35,715 bases of DNA from a bacterium (GTDB lineage: Bacteria; Patescibacteriota; Saccharimonadia; Saccharimonadales; Saccharimonadaceae): positions 1 through 35,715 of the forward strand of contig JAUIGB010000010.1 of the NCBI GenBank assembly GCA_030429975.1, given 5' to 3'. A program made the translations under genes and the position numbers. Below the pieces are notes generated by a model. The model did not search any database and was not told the DNA's origin. It worked only from the letters and a program-made list of their open reading frames with translations. Shown piece by piece: positions 4,502 to 17,941 of the stretch (positions are counted from its first letter, which is position 1; every line of letters starts with the position of its first letter).

Positions 4502-5269
4502 TTAACGGCGTCTTTTGGTCGGGAGGGCGTTGATTTGGTCCAGATTCTCACCCTTATCTATAATCATGAAGAGTTTTTCTGGTCCCAGTCCGGCATCGTA
4601 TAGTCTCTCGGTCATGCTATTGCGATGTGCTAGTCCATAAGTCAAGTATCCAACAGGCCTACCATCGCTTGTTCGCTCAATTGTATCCGGATCATAGATA
4701 GCTAGTCGACCCAGGGTATTGTATATGCTAGCAATCGCCGAGTTTTCGCGCACGTCATTTGAATCTATCGCAATTCGCCAGAATGTATCACGAGCAGTGA
4801 GTATCTTGAGAAGAGTCTCGTCAGACGGCTCTTGCTCAAGCAAGCATAGCCTAGCCCAGTCATCCTGTACCCAAAAAAGATTATCGATCGCGAGTCCATC
4901 TCCTGAATAGTCGGTATAGTCCGCTAAGATCGTTGGACAGTTTTTCTCCGCCACGCCATCTAGCATACGCATAGCAAAGCCTACAGAACGAACCGCTATG
5001 TCATCAGTCTGTTCTTTTCGCCTGCGTTTTATTGCCTGTAGGATATTCTTCGCCTCTGAAGTGTATTCTCCTTCGCGTAAGCGTATGTCCGCCATTTGTT
5101 CCACCATGTGCGCGACGTCTAAAAAGTTATGGCGAGTGTAACCCTCGCGGAACACTAGCGTGTCGGGCTCGATACAGCCTAGGACGTCGTCGGCGTCTTG
5201 CGCGGTTCGGTGACTATGAAAGATACCATTTAATTCGATCGAGGGTTTCGCGCGCCTAATCTTGTTCAT
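4502..5269 (-). CDS. Unknown protein (255 aa), faint TraB/Tiki-like features
   Basis: The ATG overlaps the last 14 bases of der, so the two genes are one operon and translation is probably coupled. The soluble product begins with a strand and a HSHRTAQDADDVL-IEPDTLVFREG segment, followed by helical regions, and near the end has LAHRNSMTERLYDAG. A histidine followed by a helix, a pIxPD-strand-E pattern, and a late histidine before a helix loosely recall the TraB/Tiki fold, but the match is weak and made by eye. No signal peptide or membrane helix. Function unknown. Confidence 0.6.
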   Translation of the reverse strand: MNKIRRAKPSIELNGIFHSHRTAQDADDVLGCIEPDTLVFREGYTRHNFLDVAHMVEQMADIRLREGEYTSEAKNILQAIKRRRKEQTDDIAVRSVGFAMRMLDGVAEKNCPTILADYTDYSGDGLAIDNLFWVQDDWARLCLLEQEPSDETLLKILTARDTFWRIAIDSNDVRENSAIASIYNTLGRLAIYDPDTIERTSDGRPVGYLTYGLAHRNSMTERLYDAGLGPEKLFMIIDKGENLDQINALPTKRRR

Positions 5270-6614
5270 TTTTAGCCTTTTTTAAGCGGTTGGCTTTGAT
5301 TTGCTTTTCATCTCGAAAGCTAAACTTTATCGGCGTGCCAGAATAGTCGTAGGCTTTACGAATAATCTTTTCTAAATACCGTTTATACGACCAGTGAAGG
5401 TACTTTAGATTACTGCCGTATATGACGAACCAAGGTGGGTTCGTGTCAGTGTGAACCATATAACGAAGCTTGGGATGAGTGTTTTTTAGTCCGGCTGGCG
5501 GGTGTTCTTGAATGGCGCGACCTAGTAAGTCATTTAACATTCGTGTCCTGGTCTCTTGTTTGCGTCGTTTGTCGATATCCAATGCTAGGTCAAAAAGTTT
5601 GGTTACGTTTTGGCCGGTGACGGAACTCGTGAAAATCAATGGAGCCCAAGGTACAAAGTCGAATGTGCGTGAGATCCGCGGTGCTATGGAGTCGCGCGTA
5701 TAGGCGTCTTTGTCCTCTGCGATATCCCATTTGCTGACCACCATGACCATGCCCTTGCCGGCTTCGTCGATGATGCCCGCTATGCGCTGGTCTAATTGAG
5801 TGTTCAGTTCGTTGACGTCCATTAGCAATAGACATATGTCTGACTCTTCTATGGCTTGTAGAGTACGTAGCACGCTGAACTTCTCTATGCCCACCTCTTG
5901 CTTGCCTGGCTTTCGCATGCCTGCTGTGTCTAGAATTTCTATATCGCGTTTATCGTATCTTACGGCGACACGGTTTATGTCGCGAGTCGTACCGGCCAGA
6001 TTGGCCACGATTGCCTGTTGTTTGCCGGCCAATGTATTAAACAGACGTGACTTGCCTACATTTGGTCGCCCTACCAACGCTATTCGCAGTACGTCGTCCA
6101 GTTTGTTGTCGGTAACGGCGGGAATCTCGCTTGTAACGCGGTCTAATATCTCGTGAATGCCGCGTGCGTGTTCGGCGCTAGATCGAATCATAGTAGAGAT
6201 ACCTAGTCGACGGAATTCGTCGTTTGGCAGGGCTTCGCGGAGGTCGGTCTTGTTCACTACCAGCATGACTGGTTTTTTACTGCGCAGTGCCTTTTTGGCG
6301 ATTTGGCGGTCGCTGTCGCTGGGATATTGGGTGCTGTCTACGACCATGAGTATGACGTCGGACGCGTCTACTGCCTCTGTGATCTGCTCTTGAATGGTTG
6401 CTTCGAATTCGTCCTCGGCAGATTTTAAGCCAGCCGTGTCGACTAGCCAGAAGTTATTTCCGTTATGCTCTACTCTTCCTATAACGCTGTCGCGTGTTGT
6501 TCCAGCCTCGCGAGCGACGATAGCCTGATTCGCTCTGACTAATCGGTTAAAAAGCGAACTCTTGCCTACGTTCGCCTGTCCAATAATCGCAACTGTTGGT
6601 AATTTGTTGGCCAT
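5256..6614 (-). CDS. der: Ribosome assembly GTPase Der (EngA)
   Basis: A 452-aa protein with two GTPase domains in tandem and a C-terminal KH-like domain, the layout found only in Der. Domain 1 has GQANVGKS, DTAG and NKTD. Domain 2 has GRPNVGKS, DTAG and SKWD. The C-terminal part ends in a basic tail rich in Lys. Der is needed for maturation of the 50S ribosomal subunit. The ATG at 6614 lies 14 nt after a TATAAT box, and the promoter at 6629-6657 is near consensus. The downstream unknown gene overlaps it. Confidence 0.96.
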   Translation of the reverse strand: MANKLPTVAIIGQANVGKSSLFNRLVRANQAIVAREAGTTRDSVIGRVEHNGNNFWLVDTAGLKSAEDEFEATIQEQITEAVDASDVILMVVDSTQYPSDSDRQIAKKALRSKKPVMLVVNKTDLREALPNDEFRRLGISTMIRSSAEHARGIHEILDRVTSEIPAVTDNKLDDVLRIALVGRPNVGKSRLFNTLAGKQQAIVANLAGTTRDINRVAVRYDKRDIEILDTAGMRKPGKQEVGIEKFSVLRTLQAIEESDICLLLMDVNELNTQLDQRIAGIIDEAGKGMVMVVSKWDIAEDKDAYTRDSIAPRISRTFDFVPWAPLIFTSSVTGQNVTKLFDLALDIDKRRKQETRTRMLNDLLGRAIQEHPPAGLKNTHPKLRYMVHTDTNPPWFVIYGSNLKYLHWSYKRYLEKIIRKAYDYSGTPIKFSFRDEKQIKANRLKKAKNEQD

Positions 6615-6738: not shown

Positions 6739-7887
6739 CTATACGGAACCACGGAATATGGTTACGTCGTAACGCTGGTCGAGCTCCTCGGAATGTTCTC
6801 TCCAAGTCGAGACGTAGAAGTCCAACTCCAGAGGCGTGCTACCTGGACGCAAGAAGCCTCCGTACAGACGCGGGAACCGCTGCTCCGTTATCTGCACCTT
6901 TTTATTACCCCAATCCTCACTGGGGTGGGGTGCCGTATGGGTGACGATTTGCCAGTTGAGTTCGCCGGTGTCGGGGTTCACCCCATACTCCAGTAGACTC
7001 AGAACCCACAAATCATCGGCTACCTTCATTAGCGATGGCTCGCCGAAACGCCCGCTCAGTATTGGTTTGGCTTGCTCCTGGGGTCCCCAGCGCTTACCGT
7101 TCCAGTACGAATAGGCATCCTTTTCCAGTAGTCGATTCCAACGAACGCGCATCATCATAATCGGACCCGTTTGCCTTCCGGCGCGCGTTGTCACGATATA
7201 GACCCACGGGCCATCACGGTGCATCGACCACATCTGATAAGGGTCGGTGTTATCCGCGTTGTTTGGCCAAATAGGTCCGATGTCACGGTCAAAGAACTGG
7301 CCATCACGGCTGTGCGCTAGCCCAGCGTAGTGCGTGGTCCAGTCGGACTCCCCTACGTCGTGCCAGTGGTCGATGCTCATGAACGAAATTATTTCGTCGC
7401 CAGTTTCGGGAAAGCTGATACCGTCGTTTGGAATAACGGAGTGCTCTTGACCGGTATACCAGCGATTGTCCATGACTCCACGAGCCACGCCATTGGGGCC
7501 GATATTCGCCGCGCCCGTAAAAGCAAACGGGTCGTCGCTACCTTGCGTTACGTCAGAATATAGAATGACAGGCGATCGCCAGCCGTTTGCTCCTACTTGA
7601 TTTGCGGGGTCTCTAATTTCGAACGTATCGCCAAAAGCGTGGGCAAAAGTACCGTCAGCCCGCCTGTAGACTACGCCCAGGTCGGTGCCACAGACACGAT
7701 ATTGCCTACATGCGTCTAAATCAGCTCCAGTGATGCGCTCTATCTCGACCGCAGGTCCTGGCGGGGATATCTCCTCCCAGTTCGGCGTAGATATGGAGCG
7801 CGGTTGCACGATTTCGGGTGGCTGTGTAGCCGACCCGCAAGATACCGCTACAAGTGCAGTAGCGATTAACGCGATCAAACGAAACAC
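6739..7887 (-). CDS. DUF4185 lipoprotein, GH183-type (candidate endo-D-arabinanase)
   Basis: A 382-aa exported protein. Start chosen at the GTG at 7887: AGGAGG lies 8 nt before it, whereas the GTG at 7896 runs into that Shine-Dalgarno. Residues 1-17 form a lipoprotein signal (hydrophobic stretch, then VAVSC with Cys17), so the enzyme should sit on the outer face of the membrane. The rest is one DUF4185 domain: CGTDLGVVYR, HAFGDTFE, GWRS, the PNDGIS and NADNTDPYQMW segments and SGRFGEPSL. DUF4185 is assigned to glycoside hydrolase family GH183, whose tested members cut the D-arabinan of mycobacterial arabinogalactan; the catalytic residues were not checked here. It is a paralogue of the next gene, with its own promoter. 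Role against an actinobacterial host wall is inference. Confidence 0.85.
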   Translation of the reverse strand: MFRLIALIATALVAVSCGSATQPPEIVQPRSISTPNWEEISPPGPAVEIERITGADLDACRQYRVCGTDLGVVYRRADGTFAHAFGDTFEIRDPANQVGANGWRSPVILYSDVTQGSDDPFAFTGAANIGPNGVARGVMDNRWYTGQEHSVIPNDGISFPETGDEIISFMSIDHWHDVGESDWTTHYAGLAHSRDGQFFDRDIGPIWPNNADNTDPYQMWSMHRDGPWVYIVTTRAGRQTGPIMMMRVRWNRLLEKDAYSYWNGKRWGPQEQAKPILSGRFGEPSLMKVADDLWVLSLLEYGVNPDTGELNWQIVTHTAPHPSEDWGNKKVQITEQRFPRLYGGFLRPGSTPLELDFYVSTWREHSEELDQRYDVTIFRGSV

Positions 7888-7935
7888 AGCCCTCACCTCC
7901 TAGTAAAGTTGCGCTATAGGTCTATAGCTATGTAT

Positions 7936-7964
7936 ATTATATCATGGAATAGATAAATTTGCAA
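7936..7964 (-). promoter_or_regulatory. Promoter of the first DUF4185 gene
   Basis: TTGCAA (7959-7964), 17 nt, TATAAT (7936-7941) on the minus strand. The -35 lies within the last codons of the upstream DUF4185 gene, so the two paralogues can be transcribed separately. The leader is about 40 nt and ends in AGGAGG. Confidence 0.7.
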
Positions 7965-9240
7965 CCTGACCGGGGTCCTCGGGCGGTTTGATGCCCAAAT
8001 CTCGCATGATATGCCCGACGAAATACCAAATTAACTCACCCTTATCACCCTCTGGTGCGTCGTGTTCCCATTCTCGTTTCCAAGAAGATACCGACATGAT
8101 TACATTATCCGCGGTTGATGCTGGATGGACGTATCCGCCATATGGAAATTCTAGTTGATGCCATGTCAGTTGCGTCACGGGGTCTAGCCACTCTCCGGAT
8201 GGTCCGTCATCGGGGTTTTTCAATGTTTGTGTAACGATCTTTGGCAAGCCGCTATAATCCGCGTATGCTAATACCCAGTTTCCATCCGAAATCTTGCGTA
8301 GTGACGGTTCGCCAAAATGACCCTCCATGATAGGCTCGGCATCCTTTTGCTCTCCCCATCCATCGCCATTCCAATAGGTGTATGCATCTTTTTCTAGGAT
8401 TTTGTTGTGTGGAACGCGAAACAACATCATTGGTCCCGGCTGTCTACCTGCCCGGACACTTACTACGTATACATGATTGCCGTCTTGTTGCATCGACCAC
8501 ATCTGGTAAGGATCCGTGTTATCCTCGTTATTTTCCCAGATTGGTCCTGTTAATTCGAAGGTTTTACCGCCGTCATCGCTCCAGGCAATTCCCGCCTGAT
8601 CGGTTTTCCAGTACGGCCTGCCTCCTTTGATATTTTGATATGAAATTGCTATGTCGTCGGTGCCAGGGATGGCCACCCCATCCGTTATAGTGTGTCCCCA
8701 TCCAAACAAATCTGGCGCTATACCTTCACTATCAGTACCTAGTGCACTATCGAATTCGATTGGTTTGCCGTGTGTTGGTATTTCGTCTGTCACCAAGGCT
8801 GTTTGAGGGCGGTATTTATCATATCCATCTGGTAAGTCTGGTAGATGTGGTCCCGCCGACTGGAATGAATCGCCAAATAGATGCAGATACCTACCATCGT
8901 TTAGCTCGACTATAGCCCCTAGGTCGGCACCACATACTCGATGCACTTCGCAGGATTGCATGTCAGTTCCAGTATCCCTGGTTACGTCATTTATCATTAG
9001 TGGTGGCGGTGGTGGCTGATTAATCACGACAGGTGTTGGCTCCGCTTCCTCGATCTCTATATCCGGTTCGTATTCCGAGAAATCTGGCGCAGACGGCGCT
9101 GTTCCGAGTGATTCAGGGCGGTCATGGATGGTGGACGAGGGCACGATTAGCACTGCCGCAGTCGCTGTTAGGCCAATTGCTTTTTTCAGCCACGGGGATA
9201 AACGATGTTTTACCCCTTTTTCCATCAACTCATATGACAT
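7942..9240 (-). CDS. DUF4185 exported protein with proline linker, GH183-type
   Basis: A 432-aa paralogue of the neighbouring lipoprotein. The N-terminus (MSYELMEKGVKHRLSPWLKKAIG) is long and basic, followed by one helix (about 21-38), which reads as an uncleaved anchor or a signal peptide without a lipobox Cys. Residues 40-90 are an acidic and proline-rich linker (EEAEPTPVVINQPPPPP). The DUF4185 domain follows with CGADLGAIVE, LFGDSFQ, the shared NEDNTDPYQMWSM block, DAYTYWNG and HFGEPSL. These blocks align closely with the neighbour, so the pair arose by duplication. A TATAAT box at 9251-9256 precedes the ATG by 10 nt. An exported arabinan hydrolase is expected from the family, with the linker letting the domain reach away from the cell. 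Confidence 0.83.
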   Translation of the reverse strand: MSYELMEKGVKHRLSPWLKKAIGLTATAAVLIVPSSTIHDRPESLGTAPSAPDFSEYEPDIEIEEAEPTPVVINQPPPPPLMINDVTRDTGTDMQSCEVHRVCGADLGAIVELNDGRYLHLFGDSFQSAGPHLPDLPDGYDKYRPQTALVTDEIPTHGKPIEFDSALGTDSEGIAPDLFGWGHTITDGVAIPGTDDIAISYQNIKGGRPYWKTDQAGIAWSDDGGKTFELTGPIWENNEDNTDPYQMWSMQQDGNHVYVVSVRAGRQPGPMMLFRVPHNKILEKDAYTYWNGDGWGEQKDAEPIMEGHFGEPSLRKISDGNWVLAYADYSGLPKIVTQTLKNPDDGPSGEWLDPVTQLTWHQLEFPYGGYVHPASTADNVIMSVSSWKREWEHDAPEGDKGELIWYFVGHIMRDLGIKPPEDPGQVANLSIP

Positions 9241-9276
9241 TGATGTATGTATTATATCCGTAATCTGTCAAAAAGC

Positions 9277-9969
9277 TTATAATTTACTGGCAATTTTGAT
9301 CTGACCGGGTGCTAACTCACCGATGGTATAAGGTCCAAAATCGGTACGATGTAGTTTTGACACCACATAACCTAGCGCGCTGAAAGTCCGTCGAATTTGC
9401 CGATTACGTCCTTCACTCATGGTCACAATCCAGTTCGCTCTGGAATCATCCATGCGTTCCAGGCCCAGCTGACTTTGGCCGTCATCGAGGTTAACACCGA
9501 TGTCGGCTATCATTTGTTGGTGGAGGGGCTCTAATGGCTTATCAAGCAATACGTTATATCTTTTGACTTTTGCATATCTAGGGTGTGTCATGGATTGAGA
9601 GAAATCTCCGTCGTTTGTCAGTAGAATTAGGCCGCTACTGTCCCGATCCAGTCGCCCCACCGTTTTTAGAGAATGATATTTGCCGGGAATAATGTCATAA
9701 ATTGTTGGGTCACTGCCCTGTGCTCTCCTTGAGCAGACATAGCCAACTGGTTTGTGGAACAGTAAATACTCCATGCTTGTCGAATCATCAATTAAGTTCC
9801 CGCGTAAACGGACTTCGTCTCCGGGACTTACCTGTACGCCAATCTTGGCAATCTGGCCATTTATCGTGACCTGATTTTTATCTATAAACTCATCAGCTTC
9901 ACGCCGGGATATTCCGGCGTGAAGCGCTAGATATTTATTCAATCTAATTGAGTCGCTATCGTTACTCAT
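9277..9969 (-). CDS. RluB/RsuA-type pseudouridine synthase
   Basis: A 230-aa protein with an N-terminal S4 RNA-binding domain (RLNKYLALHAGISRREADEFI, about residues 8-65) and a RsuA/RluB catalytic domain with GRLDRDSSGLILLTNDGD, where the Asp in GRLD is the catalytic residue. RNRQIRR near the C-terminus is another family hallmark. It converts uridine to pseudouridine in ribosomal RNA, probably 23S by resemblance to RluB, though the exact position cannot be told. It lies 24 nt after the stop of the receiver gene; a TATGAT box 8 nt before the ATG could drive it separately. Confidence 0.9.
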   Translation of the reverse strand: MSNDSDSIRLNKYLALHAGISRREADEFIDKNQVTINGQIAKIGVQVSPGDEVRLRGNLIDDSTSMEYLLFHKPVGYVCSRRAQGSDPTIYDIIPGKYHSLKTVGRLDRDSSGLILLTNDGDFSQSMTHPRYAKVKRYNVLLDKPLEPLHQQMIADIGVNLDDGQSQLGLERMDDSRANWIVTMSEGRNRQIRRTFSALGYVVSKLHRTDFGPYTIGELAPGQIKIASKL

Positions 9970-9993: not shown

Positions 9994-11001
9994 CTAAACT
10001 GCTGGCGCGCCAGGAGCTGGAGGAGTAGTGTTATCGTCACCTGCTGGTGGTACCGGTGGAACTGGAGGTACAGGTGGAACACCTGCGTCACCGCCTACAG
10101 GAGGCACTGGTGCCTCTGGAGCTGGTGCTTCTGGTGTTGGTGGAACTGGAGGTACAGGTGGAACACCTGCGTCACCGTCACCTGCTGGTGGTACCGGTGG
10201 AACTGGTGGAACGCCACCTGCTGGTTGGTCAGTTGTTGGGGTTGTTGGATCTGTTGGATTCATTGCATTTTCTCCTAAGTTAGATGGTCTTGGTGATGAA
10301 AATGGTGCCGTAGGTTGCGGCATTTCATTTTCTAGTTCGGTTGGCTGGGGCGGTAATGGACCTGCGTCCTCATTCCCCGGTGCCGGTGTCGCAGAGTCGC
10401 TACTATCACTAGTAGCCGATGGCGCTGCGTCCTCGCCTGCATGCTCCGTGGACTCCTCCTTGTTGTTATTTGTTTCATCTGATTGGCCAGTTGAGCTATT
10501 ATCATTCGACGCGGCAGTGGTTTCTGCTGAGTCGTTCGGTACGGAATCTCCACCGGGCGCTGCCGCAGTAGATTCTTCTGGTTTTGGTGCTTCTTCTGGT
10601 TTTTCCGCGGCATTGGTAGCTGGAGAATCACCCTTTGAGCCCATGACTTCGTGGACTGTTTGGACGACGTCTTCAATCCCAACCTGTGACTTTACTAGGT
10701 ACTTGTCGGCACCTAATTGTTCACCACGGGTGCGCTGATCATCACTAGATAGCGCTGTCATCATGATTACCTTGATGTCACGCGTTTCTGTCGTGCTACG
10801 CAAAATATCCAGCATATCAAAGCCACTAATTTTTGGCATCATAACGTCGCTGATTATGAGCTCTGGTTTTTCTTTGATAGCCATGGCCAGAGCTTCTTCG
10901 CCATCGCCTGCCGATACAATGTCAAAACCTTCCGCCAGTAGGCGCACGCCATAAATTTCGCGCAGGCTTTTATCATCTTCAACCAATAATATTTTTGTCA
11001 T
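9994..11001 (-). CDS. Response regulator receiver with long proline-rich tail
   Basis: A 335-aa protein. Residues 1-120 form a complete receiver domain: VEDD (E8, D9, D10), phospho-acceptor D52 in ISDVMMP, the MMTALS switch Thr and the conserved Lys in DKYLVK. There is no DNA-binding or enzyme domain. Residues 125-335 are low complexity: first Glu, Ser, Asn and Ala rich, then repeats of VPPVPPVPP with GGDAGVPP units. GGAGG lies a few bases before the ATG. The gene follows the hybrid-length kinase by 53 nt, so they are a pair. The output must be by protein contact, perhaps through the tail. The tail is encoded by direct DNA repeats and could vary in length. Confidence 0.85.
   Translation of the reverse strand: MTKILLVEDDKSLREIYGVRLLAEGFDIVSAGDGEEALAMAIKEKPELIISDVMMPKISGFDMLDILRSTTETRDIKVIMMTALSSDDQRTRGEQLGADKYLVKSQVGIEDVVQTVHEVMGSKGDSPATNAAEKPEEAPKPEESTAAAPGGDSVPNDSAETTAASNDNSSTGQSDETNNNKEESTEHAGEDAAPSATSDSSDSATPAPGNEDAGPLPPQPTELENEMPQPTAPFSSPRPSNLGENAMNPTDPTTPTTDQPAGGVPPVPPVPPAGDGDAGVPPVPPVPPTPEAPAPEAPVPPVGGDAGVPPVPPVPPVPPAGDDNTTPPAPGAPAV
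10037..10206. repeat. Direct repeats coding the proline-rich tail
   Basis: A 39-bp unit occurs exactly twice (10055-10093 and 10139-10177). An overlapping 29-bp unit also occurs twice (10037-10065 and 10178-10206). They encode the VPPVPPVPP stretches of the receiver protein and could expand or contract by slippage or recombination. Confidence 0.85.
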
Positions 11002-11054: not shown

Positions 11055-13481
11055 TTATTGATTATTTTGAGTTGGATGTTGATTTGCATTTTGTGGTCCC
11101 ATCGCGGGCGTGCTGTTCGGCTGCCCTACAGGGGGCGTGGTAATAGGTGGCGCTTGTTTGGGTACTGCGGTCGGCTCGGGTTCTAGAATAGGGGTTGAAT
11201 CGTCGGCAGTTTGTTCAGGATTAGTCTCTATTGCTTGTGGCGCGGGTGGAGAGGTCTGGGGCTTTGTGGGTGCTGGAGTTGGCGTAGATGTAGGGACGGC
11301 TATTGGTTTTGGTGTTTGGGTGGGTGGTGGTGTTGGTTGTGGCACGGGGGTCGGAGGTTTTATGTCGGCAGGCACTGGGTTGACGGGTGGTTGAGGCGTG
11401 CGAGGAGGCGGAACTGTAGGTGCTGGCCGGGGTGGTGGCACCGGTGTTGGTGCTTGCTTTGGCGCCGTCGGTGGTATGACCATTCTATCTTTGTTCCGCA
11501 TAGGCTCGGGTTTATTAGAAGAATTACCTCCCAGTAACTGATCGGCTGGGTTGGGCGCGGGCGCCTTTGCGACTGGAGTTTTATATGGCATGGATTGCGA
11601 GCCAGATTTTCCGCCTTTTTCTTTGCCCTTGGCGACTATAATTGGCGTGTTCAGAGCTATCTGACGATGTTTTTGAGTCTCGGCATCTACCTTTGACTTG
11701 TCTATGTATTTATTGTTGTCTTCTGGTTTCGCGACTTCGGCCGATGCTGCTTCTATGCGTCGTTGCGCTTCCATGTGTGAAATCCTAGGTAGTTCGACAA
11801 AGAAAGTTGAACCTTTTTGGAATTCACTCTCCACCCATATACGACCTTCCATTGCCTCTACCAATCGTCGGCATAGGTATAAACCTAGTCCGGTACCGCC
11901 AATTTCGCGAGTATCACTATTATCTACACGATAAAATTTCTGGAATAAATGCGGTATGTCTTCTGTCGGTATTCCAATTCCACTGTCTTTTATCGCGACG
12001 ACGGCATGATCGTCATCACCATGAAGGTCGACCACTACTTCGCCCTGTTTTGTATATTTGATGGCGTTTTCGACGAGATTATTTAGTATCTCGCGCAAAT
12101 GATCAGCGTCCACGTCTACGTAGTACACTGGTTCTAGATTCTTTAGCCCTCCAACCTCGTCTCCGACTGGTTTAAAGAATAATGTCAGCCCTTTTGCCTC
12201 AGCTTTTGGCTTTAGACCGCCTACGATTCCGTCAGTGAACGAGACTAAGTCTATGACCTTTGGATTATTCTTTAATCTTCCATCGTCAGCCTTGGTCACG
12301 TCCAATAAATCTTGGAACAAATGCCCTAAATGCTGGGCGGACTCGTGAGCTTTTGATATATATTCACGGGCTTTGTCGTCGATCTTGGCGGTAGCCGGAT
12401 TGAGTGCTAACCCTAGATATCCCTCTATAGAAGCGACTGGCGTGCGCATTTCGTGGCTGGCGGTACTAATGAACTCGGCCTGCTCTTTTTCGTCCTGTTG
12501 CTCCTTGGTGATATCTCGGAACACAATTATTCCACCTTCGCCTATGCGACCTATCGGAGAAACGACTAGTTCAATGTTAAGTTTTTTGCCGGCGTTTGTT
12601 TGTAATACTAAATCTTCACGACGCACGGACTGGTTGGTTGATAGTACCTCGAAGACAGGGTCTTTGGATTTGTCGAGAGCGCTTCCATCCTTGGATAATA
12701 GTTGCAGTACGGACTTGTAGTCCAGTCCTATCGCGTCTTGCTTGCCCCATCCTGTCATGCGAATGGCCGCAGGATTAATCAGTTCTATATTACCCTGGTT
12801 GTTTATTGCTATAACGCCGTCACTGATAGCTCCGATGACCGTATCGGATTTGCCGGATACCTGGTTGAGTTCACTAGCTAAATCATAGTAGGCGCGCTCA
12901 TTGGTCTTTTCGTTGCTTGCCTTGCTGTGCCACAAGATTTGACTGACTATCACGGGCAAAAAGCCCGCCAACGCTATTCCGATAATCACCTCTTCTACTA
13001 GTAAACCTTCATACCATAGCCACACTGTATATCCAGACAGCCCTGCTAGTAATACGCCAACAATCCATACCCCGAACGTCCCCGCGAAGATAGATGTAAT
13101 CATCCATAGCGCCAAAAATGGCGAATCGTACGTACCGGTTGATACGGTCAAATAACCGACCGATCCCAGTAGTAGGGCGTATGCGAATAGCGCAGTCAAT
13201 ATCCTGACACTGAACGACCTCTCGGGCACGACTAGATACGAAAGCGTGGCTATTATCATGCTGATGACACTAATGCCAACGGCAAACATTCCGATTTCGT
13301 AGCTACCTATACCTCCTGTATTAGAAAACACAAACAAGGCTATGATGATGGCATTAATAATCAAGGTCGCTTCACATACGCGACGATGCCAAAACGGTGT
13401 TAATGTCAGTTGTTTTATGTTGCCTCCCCTTTTTGACTGACAGGCCCGAGCCACTCCACGCCCACGTTGGTCTATACGCAA
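11055..13481 (-). CDS. Membrane sensor histidine kinase with proline-rich C-terminal tail
   Basis: 808 aa if the TTG at 13481 is used. Residues 35-185 hold six or seven membrane helices. A PAS domain follows (about 205-325, GAISDGVIAINNQGNIELINPA), then HisKA with H343 in STASHEMRTP, and an HATPase with the N box NNLVENAIKYT, DSGIG and GGTGLGL. After about residue 565 comes a 240-aa tail, first Lys and Asp rich, then almost pure Pro/Thr/Ala/Gln. A strong GGGGAGG at about 13423-13429 is followed by no ATG, GTG or TTG at useful distance (an ATA is 4 nt on), so the start is uncertain; a GTG at 13454 is also possible. It pairs with the downstream receiver protein. Signal sensed unknown. Confidence 0.85.
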   Translation of the reverse strand: MRIDQRGRGVARACQSKRGGNIKQLTLTPFWHRRVCEATLIINAIIIALFVFSNTGGIGSYEIGMFAVGISVISMIIATLSYLVVPERSFSVRILTALFAYALLLGSVGYLTVSTGTYDSPFLALWMITSIFAGTFGVWIVGVLLAGLSGYTVWLWYEGLLVEEVIIGIALAGFLPVIVSQILWHSKASNEKTNERAYYDLASELNQVSGKSDTVIGAISDGVIAINNQGNIELINPAAIRMTGWGKQDAIGLDYKSVLQLLSKDGSALDKSKDPVFEVLSTNQSVRREDLVLQTNAGKKLNIELVVSPIGRIGEGGIIVFRDITKEQQDEKEQAEFISTASHEMRTPVASIEGYLGLALNPATAKIDDKAREYISKAHESAQHLGHLFQDLLDVTKADDGRLKNNPKVIDLVSFTDGIVGGLKPKAEAKGLTLFFKPVGDEVGGLKNLEPVYYVDVDADHLREILNNLVENAIKYTKQGEVVVDLHGDDDHAVVAIKDSGIGIPTEDIPHLFQKFYRVDNSDTREIGGTGLGLYLCRRLVEAMEGRIWVESEFQKGSTFFVELPRISHMEAQRRIEAASAEVAKPEDNNKYIDKSKVDAETQKHRQIALNTPIIVAKGKEKGGKSGSQSMPYKTPVAKAPAPNPADQLLGGNSSNKPEPMRNKDRMVIPPTAPKQAPTPVPPPRPAPTVPPPRTPQPPVNPVPADIKPPTPVPQPTPPPTQTPKPIAVPTSTPTPAPTKPQTSPPAPQAIETNPEQTADDSTPILEPEPTAVPKQAPPITTPPVGQPNSTPAMGPQNANQHPTQNNQ

Positions 13482-13563: not shown

Positions 13564-15759
13564 TTAAAACAGAGTTGCTTCGCTATTTTCGTCAGAGAAA
13601 TTTCTGGAAACTAAATCAACCATTCTGCGCCCATAGGCTTCGTCGCAGTATAGGTGCAGCTTTTTTCTGCCGCTATCATCAACATGGACTATACATACGT
13701 ATTCACAGTCTGGTTCCGTTACCACTGTCACGTATTGGTTGCCGTCGACATCCACGTCGCGTACACCTTGGAATTTGTCATAGCCGATATTGGTGATGAA
13801 CTGCGTTATCTCACTATTGCTATCTAGTTTATGATTAAACACTTTTGTTTCGCTGCCTTTTTCAAATAAGTTGAACTGTATACTGTCAAATCCGTCTGGG
13901 GCGTTGTCGTATATCTCGTCCAGTTCCACTCCGCCCGACACTACCCACATCTGCCCGTCGTTTATCAATAGACAATCTTCTGATCGTTGCTTTGGCAGTA
14001 TGCTTTCTGGCGCGTCATAGCTTAGCGACTCCATCAGTTCCTTTTCTATCTCGGGTAGCAACTGATAGTTCAAAACGTCCAGTATTATTTGTCGAGATTT
14101 TGATTTTGGGTCTGCCAGCTCCATCTGCATGATTCTGGCACGATCAGTGACGCGTACATGCTCTGATTTGGTTATGATATTGTCAGTAATCATATTCATG
14201 ACGGGTCTTACTATTTCTTCCGTCATTAGGCCACGCGCGAATTTGGCGCGATCCCTTTCGTTCATAAAAGCCTGCGCGATATTAAACTTTGCGCCCCGTT
14301 GGTATGCCTCTGATATCTCGTCCGCATAATGGCCGAATATAAAAGGTTTGTAGATATGTAACGAGTTGGTCACGGTTTTTCGCGCGCATTCGTATATCTC
14401 TGGATTGATAGATAGTATATCGACAACATAATCCTTGCCTTCCTCGGGGTTTTCGGGATCGTAACGATCCTCTAGGTCTTGGGTCAATACATCGAATACT
14501 TTGTTGAACATATGGTTGAGCGTTGCCAGCCACATATCATGCTTGTCGGAGTCGTGACGATACGCATAATTGGAGTTATTGAGGGTTTGTAGGATTCCAG
14601 ATAGTCTGGTCAGGTCTTCGTGACCGCCTAGGTATTCATCTATGTATGTATCGAGGAATGCCCGTATCGTAGCCGGTGGATTATTCGGTTTTCGCTCTGC
14701 TGGTGGGTCGTAGAATTCATCGAGCATAAAAATGCTCAAGGCATCTCTGATATCCCTGGCTATATCCATGTCCGTCACCGGCTGATCACCCAATCCTAGC
14801 GGTTCTCCATGTACGCTATCTAGGTCGACTATCGCTCCTAGTGCTGTCAGGTTGCCAGCGTAAACGAATCCATGGGTTAAGTCCGCGCCATGCAGTCTGG
14901 CGAGATTTCTGGCCACGTTTGGTGCTAGGTAGTTTTTTGTATATCGTCTAATATCTTGTGCGTTTTCTACGTCCAGCGGTTCTTCCCCGTCGAATAGTAA
15001 GCGCATGTTAATTTGTTCGTACACTCTGGCGAGGCGTTTCTTGTCCTTAATGTCCCCCAACCTATAGGGGCTGTCCGTCGCGCGTAGAGATATATAAAAA
15101 GTCGTGTCCTGGAACACTGCCATCATGCCGAGTCGCTCGGCGATTGTCTGCTTTTCCTTCGGCTGTCGTTGTATGTATTTTTCGATGATGCGAATTTTGT
15201 AATCGGCCAAGTCTATCAGTTCATGGTGGTCTGTCTCGTCGTCCGCCAGTGGCCATGGATATTGATCAATTTTTGGCTCGGCGATTCCCAATATTTTTTC
15301 TGTCGATACGCCGATTTCACACAGTAACCGCGAGGCTTTTAATACCCTCTCGATGATGGCGCTTTCTTGTAGGCCATATGCTATATATCTGAGCGCCGCC
15401 GTCGGATGTTCTGTCACGTCGGGACTTGTAAAATTGTTGCCTTTTAGCGACGTCGCCTCGTAGGTATTACCATATTCGTCTGTCCACGGTCGGTTGAATA
15501 CTTCGTCGGTTAGCATATATGAACGTCCGTGCGTGCTGCTGGGGCGCTTCATGATGTCAGTTGCCCTGCCCATTCGTCCTCCATCATTAAAAGGTAGCGA
15601 GGGCTGATCGGCATCCGGACTGGTTAGCATTATGGGAGGATTGGTCAATAGACTACGCAGTGTTCGACGAGGAATCGGGCAACCTTCAATATCTTGCGGT
15701 ATCTTTAGATCTTTTACCGCGCTTATTTCATGAGCTTTGATTCTGCGACTGACAGTCAT
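13564..15759 (-). CDS. Large unknown protein (731 aa) with SelO-like kinase motif
   Basis: A soluble 731-aa protein without signal peptide or membrane helix, second gene of a two-gene unit (23 nt after the 129-aa gene). Around residues 288-314 it reads LARLHGADLTHGFVYAGN and then LTALGAIVDLD. The spacing of HG, N303 and D312 matches the catalytic loop and metal-binding Asp of the SelO pseudokinase fold (HGxxxxDN then IDYG). The residue that is the catalytic Asp in SelO is Gly here (G302). An upstream helix with a conserved Glu and the segment CEIGVSTEKILGI could be the N-lobe counterpart. The C-terminal 200 residues are beta-rich and unknown. SelO enzymes transfer AMP to proteins; activity here is doubtful. 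The relation is suggested by eye only. Confidence 0.6.
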   Translation of the reverse strand: MTVSRRIKAHEISAVKDLKIPQDIEGCPIPRRTLRSLLTNPPIMLTSPDADQPSLPFNDGGRMGRATDIMKRPSSTHGRSYMLTDEVFNRPWTDEYGNTYEATSLKGNNFTSPDVTEHPTAALRYIAYGLQESAIIERVLKASRLLCEIGVSTEKILGIAEPKIDQYPWPLADDETDHHELIDLADYKIRIIEKYIQRQPKEKQTIAERLGMMAVFQDTTFYISLRATDSPYRLGDIKDKKRLARVYEQINMRLLFDGEEPLDVENAQDIRRYTKNYLAPNVARNLARLHGADLTHGFVYAGNLTALGAIVDLDSVHGEPLGLGDQPVTDMDIARDIRDALSIFMLDEFYDPPAERKPNNPPATIRAFLDTYIDEYLGGHEDLTRLSGILQTLNNSNYAYRHDSDKHDMWLATLNHMFNKVFDVLTQDLEDRYDPENPEEGKDYVVDILSINPEIYECARKTVTNSLHIYKPFIFGHYADEISEAYQRGAKFNIAQAFMNERDRAKFARGLMTEEIVRPVMNMITDNIITKSEHVRVTDRARIMQMELADPKSKSRQIILDVLNYQLLPEIEKELMESLSYDAPESILPKQRSEDCLLINDGQMWVVSGGVELDEIYDNAPDGFDSIQFNLFEKGSETKVFNHKLDSNSEITQFITNIGYDKFQGVRDVDVDGNQYVTVVTEPDCEYVCIVHVDDSGRKKLHLYCDEAYGRRMVDLVSRNFSDENSEATLF

Positions 15760-16363: not shown

Positions 16364-17941
16364 TCAGTAGTTAAATATGTCCGGACGCAGAATGATCAAA
16401 CTGCGCAGTTGAGTCAGCTGGTATTTCCGATAACCGGCTTTTTCCAGCTCTTCGTGCCAGCTACGCAATAGAGGCGATGCCTCTAGCGCTCGCGCATAGT
16501 TATCGGATGCCGCGTCGTTGACGAACACAAAGCGCATTGCCTCGATGACGGCCTCCATCATGTTTTCCAGTGGGGGCTCGCTGTCGCGCCGATTCTGCCT
16601 ACCAAAGTAGCCATTTTCTATCGCGCGATCACCTAGGGTCAGGAGATAGTTGTATATCTGGTCTGGGGTATCCACCTTTCCGGTTTCGTCCACCAGTCTC
16701 AGTATAGCTACTCTGAGAGCCCAGTTGAGTTGTCGTAGCTCGTCCTGGTCGCAGTCACCCTGTGCGACCTTTTGCAGGGTCGCTTCGATGACATCGATGG
16801 CATAGCCAGTTCGCTCCTTGTCGTTGAACAGAGGGCTTTCCTCTATTAACGAGATGACGCTGTCGATTGCACGGCTATCCGCGTCCTCGTTCATGGCGAC
16901 TTCTCCGTGCGCGACGCGATCGGCGAAATCACGGAACTGTCGTTTGCACATCGTCTCGACCTCGGCGTTGTACGCCTTGCGCATTGCCTGAGTCGCATGG
17001 CGATACTTGAGCTTGGTTTCTTGGTAGATTGGACGCTCAAGCCAGTCGAGGTTGTTGATGACTTCGTACAGATGCTCGCGCTCGTGTTCCGTTAACTCCA
17101 TGTTGTGGATGATCGCGAACATGTTACGTGACTGCTGGTAGTGGCCCTTTTCGACCATCTCGCCTAGCCTATCCAGACGATAGTCGACCTGCCTGCGCAG
17201 GGCCTCGTACTCGTCACGACGCGACGCGCTGGGTTCTAGCAGGTACGCGTGCGCGTATCCGCCGTCCAGCACTGGTACGTTCATGCCACTCGCTCCGACG
17301 TTTAGTCGAATCTTTTCACCTATCATGACAGTTTTGCCCGACAGGTTTTCGTACACGCCATCAGCGAACACCATGATTCCGAGTTGAGACCAGATGACGT
17401 AATTGATGCCATTGGTCCCACGAATCGCGAACGATTGCTTGTAGCCCTCGAACCGGCCGTAGCTCCATTTGCTATCGTAAACACCCATGAGCGTGCCCTC
17501 GATGGTCACTGGCATGCCATCGGGCATCGCGACGATTTTATCGGGCGTTGGGTTCACGGGCGTCAGGGTTAGTTCGATATCCCTGACGACATATCGATGA
17601 CCGACGTGAATTTGGTCGCCAACGTCGACGATCGTGACTAGCGCGATACCCGTCTGCTGTGATACCTCACCAAACGCGGTGATATCGTCTGCGGTGATGG
17701 ATTCCGGAACGAAGATGTCCTTGGCGCATCCCTGGCTGACTACGTGTAGTTCGGGAGGCGCGCCGGGCGCGCAAACGACTGTAACGTTGGCGGCGACTTT
17801 TTCGCCGACTTGGAATTGGTCGTCTTCTCGCTTGAAGCGTTCCTGCCAGTCGACGACATCTTCCCTTCCCGGGAAGTACGTTGACGGTATGTCATGCTGA
17901 GCACCCGCGGGCGCGTCAGTCATTACGGCTGTATTCGACAT
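16364..17941 (-). CDS. Large unknown soluble protein (525 aa)
   Basis: ATG with GAAGGGA about 10 nt upstream and a promoter at 18003-18031. No signal peptide or membrane helix. Residues 1-230 look beta-rich (GEKVAANVTVVCAPG, VGHRYVVRDIELTLTPV, GKTVMIGEKIRLNVG), perhaps OB-fold-like modules. Residues 240-525 are helical and charged (RRDEYEALRRQVDYRLDRLGEMVEKG and later repeats). I recognise no family or catalytic motif. Codon use is GC-richer than in the flanking genes. It is a single-gene unit closed by a strong hairpin, and its leader is about 50 nt. Confidence 0.7.
   Translation of the reverse strand: MSNTAVMTDAPAGAQHDIPSTYFPGREDVVDWQERFKREDDQFQVGEKVAANVTVVCAPGAPPELHVVSQGCAKDIFVPESITADDITAFGEVSQQTGIALVTIVDVGDQIHVGHRYVVRDIELTLTPVNPTPDKIVAMPDGMPVTIEGTLMGVYDSKWSYGRFEGYKQSFAIRGTNGINYVIWSQLGIMVFADGVYENLSGKTVMIGEKIRLNVGASGMNVPVLDGGYAHAYLLEPSASRRDEYEALRRQVDYRLDRLGEMVEKGHYQQSRNMFAIIHNMELTEHEREHLYEVINNLDWLERPIYQETKLKYRHATQAMRKAYNAEVETMCKRQFRDFADRVAHGEVAMNEDADSRAIDSVISLIEESPLFNDKERTGYAIDVIEATLQKVAQGDCDQDELRQLNWALRVAILRLVDETGKVDTPDQIYNYLLTLGDRAIENGYFGRQNRRDSEPPLENMMEAVIEAMRFVFVNDAASDNYARALEASPLLRSWHEELEKAGYRKYQLTQLRSLIILRPDIFNY

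Follow-up and report, generated by a model that had tools for sequence, protein, structure and literature searches.

The closest described system is that of Candidatus Mycosynbacter amalyticus, a parasite of Gordonia, for which Al-Jourani et al. (2023) described a lipoprotein of the DUF4185 family alongside a GH172 enzyme (PMC10115798). Two models were put forward for this organism, namely feeding on arabinogalactan or local remodelling of the wall to reach host contents. All soluble DUF4185 proteins in that study cut D-arabinan; the M. amalyticus protein, when tried, was insoluble (PMC10115798). In EndoMA1, the solved GH183 endo-alpha-D-arabinanase from Microbacterium arabinogalactanolyticum (8hhv/8ic1), D33 is the nucleophile, D51 is the acid/base and E243 supports Arg198; a change at any one of these three acids removes nearly all activity (PMC10509167). 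Cellular Mycobacteriales also possess GH183 proteins with the same active-site motif (in Nocardia and Rhodococcus, and Rv3707c and MSMEG_2107 in PMC10115798), which are thought to remodel their own cell wall. The kind of enzyme discussed here and the ecological proposal are therefore already known, and most of the interpretation is in print (PMC10115798), although our search found no literature naming both Saccharibacteria and GH183. Relative to the literature searched, the new elements are tandem and variable gene copies in a fixed slot, the divergence of two paralogues at Trp138, carriers that have no GH172, and a kinship with phage enzymes.

The window, a stretch of 35,715 nucleotides, belongs to a near-complete genome of 1.02 Mb (98.9% complete) that is supported as saccharibacterial, as the sequence-only reading had supposed. 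The window is saccharibacterial DNA, and contamination is argued against by the flanking rluB and der genes, which are syntenic in the congeners G002, G003 and G009. Between these genes lie two DUF4185 paralogues, a and b (Table 1), arranged head-to-tail 54 bases apart, both free of internal stops and 39.6% identical over 359 columns. They are the only PF13810 matches in the genome (1,018,513 bases). The response regulator upstream of rluB has a long Ala/Pro-rich C-terminal tail in place of a recognized output domain, and two large open reading frames in the window, 13564-15759 (731 aa) and 16364-17941 (525 aa), gave no Pfam matches.

Table 1. Coordinates of the paralogues, their promoter candidates and the neighbouring genes in the window.
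Feature	Position	Strand	Remarks
GH183 paralogue a	6739..7887	-	Exported lipoprotein; lipobox AVSC, Cys17; catalytic D69, D87, E283 (numbered from GTG 7887)
GH183 paralogue b	7942..9240	-	N-terminal hydrophobic stretch at 22-38, then a Pro/acid-rich linker ending near residue 86; catalytic D106, D124, E311
rluB-type pseudouridine synthase	9277..9969	-	Upstream border of the slot, conserved; Pfam, synteny
der GTPase	5256..6614	-	Downstream border of the slot, conserved; named from translation (double GTPase motifs), synteny
Response regulator, long Pro-rich tail	9994-11001	-	Upstream of rluB; Pfam, conserved neighbour in the genus
PAS histidine kinase	11055-13481	-	Upstream of rluB; Pfam, conserved neighbour in the genus
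Candidate sigma-70-like promoter of paralogue a	7936..7964	-	TTGCAA-17-TATAAT, TG before -10 (extended -10); consensus match
TATAAT 10 nt before ATG of paralogue b	9251..9256	-	Read from sequence

The open reading frame of paralogue a spans 6739-7896, and translation very likely begins not at its first GTG but at the later GTG at 7887, because AGGAGG lies 8 nt upstream of the latter. The N-terminus read from this codon is MFRLIALIATALVAVSC, in which the lipobox cysteine is residue 17, as previously read from the letters; it would be Cys20 if the first GTG were used. The start codon of paralogue b is supported by the recurrence of MS[KY]EL at the N-termini of b-type proteins in four genomes. 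Its linker of about 48 residues contains 11 prolines and 11 acidic residues, and pLDDT in the AlphaFold model is below 50 across residues 31-81. The sequence-only reading had described paralogue b as carrying an anchor helix and a 50-residue proline-rich linker, and had placed one enzyme near the cell surface and the other far out. The linker of paralogue b and the lipobox of paralogue a support this in part; however, the hydrophobic stretch of paralogue b ends in proline and small residues that would also suit signal peptidase, so that it may either anchor the protein or be a signal peptide that is cleaved off.

Each gene had also been credited with its own promoter, which is borne out in part. 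The candidate upstream of paralogue a has both elements, whereas paralogue b has a TATAAT alone, with no -35 seen at normal spacing, and the number of promoter-like matches across the region is not above that in shuffles. If the TATAAT of paralogue b is used, its mRNA would be nearly leaderless.

Both proteins match PF13810, at 214 bits (E 3.6e-63) for paralogue a and 148 bits (E 3.5e-43) for paralogue b against a gathering score of 39.5, and a Pfam search of the two found no other family. The best PDB sequence matches are to EndoMA1 (8hhv, E 2.7e-33, for a; 8ic1, E 2.1e-22, for b). In Foldseek searches of 350,542 chains, the AlphaFold models (pLDDT 80.9 for a and 75.3 for b) again found EndoMA1 as the top match, with a TM of 0.76 and E 1.2e-24 for paralogue a (8hhv) and a TM of 0.62 and E 7.8e-23 for paralogue b (8ic1), and both thus have its propeller fold. 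The assignment to DUF4185/GH183 made from sequence is thereby confirmed, and the catalytic acids are kept in both copies. The equivalents of D33, D51, E243, R198 and Y293 are in fact invariant in all 12 saccharibacterial copies, i.e. the window pair and ten relatives. The window proteins are 27-31% identical to EndoMA1 and do not have its C-terminal binding module. In contrast, Trp138, the stacking residue that forms a platform in the EndoMA1 cleft, has no equivalent in the alignment in seven of the 12 copies, which are paralogue b of the window and six others. It is present in paralogue a, in a of G007, in copy 2 of G009, in copy 3 of G002 and in the G050 protein. Paralogue b has also lost part of the Trp138 loop. 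Since Trp138 is kept in a and lost in b, the pair probably differs in how the substrate fits or in what is released.

Across the genus, GH183 genes occupy a single slot, rluB-[GH183]n-der, with zero to three copies. The slot holds two copies in the source genome, G007 and G009, three in G002 and one in G008 and G003; it is without GH183 in G001 (a 48-base gap) and in G004 and G005 (other sequence), and tblastn found no decayed GH183 in these three empty slots. In G005, der appears to be split into two overlapping frames (L045:2006-3500), by sequencing error or real change. Elsewhere in the family, rluB and der are near each other: they are at most about 1.2 kb apart in 21 of 27 loci outside the genus, none of these having GH183 in the stretch covered. 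Carriers are few, amounting to seven genomes among the 394 of the family and belonging to two genera. Since four of the 10 genomes of the genus have no match, two of them being 97% complete, GH183 is not essential to the genus. A tree of RluB and Der requires five changes of GH183 presence, at least three of which are forced by well-supported branches; therefore, the slot has repeatedly gained, lost or swapped its GH183 genes. Distant DUF4185-like exported proteins occur elsewhere in Saccharimonadia (L039:8210-9328, L040:7735-9153, L041:8324-9379 and L042:2060-3280), outside the rluB-der slot; they were rejected as GH183 as they match just the C-terminal half of the PF13810 profile.

The carrier in the other genus, G050, is a single contig of 1,081,308 bases with its sole GH183, a lipoprotein 36-38% identical to the window paralogues, in the same rluB-der slot, and with one GH172. 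This size and content fit M. amalyticus, whose genome is 1.08 Mbp (PMC12592800), and G050 may well be that organism. If so, MycDUF4185 of M. amalyticus, likewise a saccharibacterial surface lipoprotein, would share the slot as well. The M. amalyticus-type kit is present in part in the source genome, paralogue a supplying the surface lipoprotein. However, M. amalyticus has a single GH183 copy and a GH172, whereas the window has two diverged copies, one of them on a Pro/acid-rich linker, in a genome from which GH172 is missing.

A tree of 59 rows placed the 12 saccharibacterial proteins in one group (99/87); an earlier tree of 52 rows agrees, with lower support. Cellular proteins in it were drawn from 148 genomes of one actinobacterial class and from pattern hits, with the mycobacterial Rv3707c and MSMEG_2107 outside the tree. 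Nearest to the saccharibacterial group are Rhodococcus phage Dorin and viral contig L127 (96/88); the next branch adds Rhodococcus phages Trina and NiceHouse with viral contig L128 (98/96). The 'hydrolase' proteins of the three named phages share the GEPSL motif with the saccharibacterial enzymes and are 35-39% identical to paralogue a, and the Rhodococcus phage gene adjoins thyX in an early-type region. GH183 domains of Gordonia phages, in contrast, lie inside lysin A and are distant from the saccharibacterial enzymes, and the main cellular group of Nocardia and Rhodococcus, including EndoMA1, is separate (100/99). Among sampled sequences, the closest relatives of the saccharibacterial enzymes thus appear to be those of Rhodococcus phages rather than those of cellular Mycobacteriales. 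Transfer may have run either way, since a single phage clade is left standing by the AU test (p 0.23). Acquisition from the chromosome of a mycolata host was rejected with the nearest cellular sequences falling in another group, although the AU test of a saccharibacterial group placed with the cellular one (p 0.073) falls short of formal rejection. On the phage side, the name EatA led in the literature solely to an unrelated E. coli protein. Viral contig IMGVR_UViG_3300007790_000993 (L127:550-5754) encodes a 1734-aa protein with a C-terminal GH183 domain that keeps all catalytic acids; judged from its size and neighbour it may be a tail protein, and the phage may carry the arabinanase on its particle.

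Taken with the published work, it is likely that a and b are surface endo-D-arabinofuranases that cut host D-arabinan, mainly for opening the wall. Both would be retaining endo-alpha-D-arabinofuranases exposed at the saccharibacterial surface, a held outside as a lipoprotein and b on its long disordered linker, or released. The substrate would be the D-arabinan of arabinogalactan and/or lipoarabinomannan, and local opening of the host wall would let the attached epibiont reach host contents. A mycolic-acid actinobacterial host is plausible because all 23 named phages among the 24 phage records that contain a homologue have Rhodococcus, Gordonia or Mycobacterium as hosts (the other record is an unannotated fecal contig) and because the nearest cellular homologues in the pattern search are from Nocardia and Rhodococcus. 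The sequence-only reading had proposed an epibiont or predator that loosens the arabinan wall of such a host; the family, the catalytic acids and the saccharibacterial genome speak for it, and the idea itself was already published for M. amalyticus (PMC10115798).

The same enzymes could serve feeding, in which arabino-oligosaccharides freed from the host wall would be imported and degraded to D-arabinose. This is one of the two models for M. amalyticus, which has an active GH172 with a predicted cytoplasmic location (PMC10115798), and GH172 (PF11175) accompanies GH183 in G008 and G050, i.e. in two of five carriers as against six of 393 class genomes overall (hypergeometric p 0.002, a value that ignores relatedness). 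However, a PF11175 search found no GH172 in the source genome, in G007 (97% complete) or in G009 (99%), and these three have no GH116 above the family cut-off either. Wall opening is therefore probably favoured over feeding in these genomes, where other exo-enzymes could replace GH172, and feeding as the main use is rather unlikely. GH172 is also found without GH183 in G165, G118, G091 and G146 of Saccharimonadia (L017, L020, L021 and L022), and exo-enzymes thus also occur apart from the endo-enzyme. GH116 was rejected as a partner, its matches staying below the cut-off in every genome searched and occurring also in genomes without a GH183 match. A cutinase or mycolyl-esterase partner was likewise rejected, as PF01083 is present in 142 of 393 class genomes and is not specific to GH183 carriers. 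In the source genome, a 793-aa open frame matches PF01083 (E 9.9e-18; G000:C36:46909-47454; L186, L192), and in Saccharimonadia this domain often lies within frames of 550-700 aa.

Another explanation is an adhesin role, in which a divergent GH183 fold would chiefly bind D-arabinan; this would apply at least to paralogue b, with its weaker family match, missing Trp138 platform and shortened loop. Invariance of the three essential acids and Arg198 across such highly diverged copies would be unexpected after loss of catalysis, and an adhesin is accordingly improbable. Still less credence is given to some other alpha-D-arabinofuranoside target, such as one that decorates the pilus or LPS of a bacterium outside the mycolata. 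Some GH183 enzymes do cut the pilin D-arabinan of Pseudomonas aeruginosa PA7, and Bacteroidota carry GH183 (PMC10115798), but the kinship with phages of Rhodococcus, with further phage matches in Gordonia and Mycobacterium, points elsewhere, and the hosts of M. amalyticus, which is the closest carrier in culture, are among the Mycolata (PMC12592800).

Wall opening of a mycolata host, the preferred explanation, bears on how Saccharibacteria living on such hosts get through their waxy wall. The predicted enzyme pair, together with a solved homologue, a fixed slot and congeners with and without the genes, makes a directly testable marker of host type, and the pair adds to the enzymes with which arabinogalactan could be opened. 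It may be, although we hold this tentatively, that an endo-D-arabinanase passed between mycolata phages and Saccharibacteria, in either direction, and then multiplied and diversified in one slot, serving to open the wall in cells that lack the means to eat its products. Given the phage kinship, tools for cutting the wall may pass between the viruses and the predators that share a host; if this is true, virus and epibiont would use one key for the same host wall.
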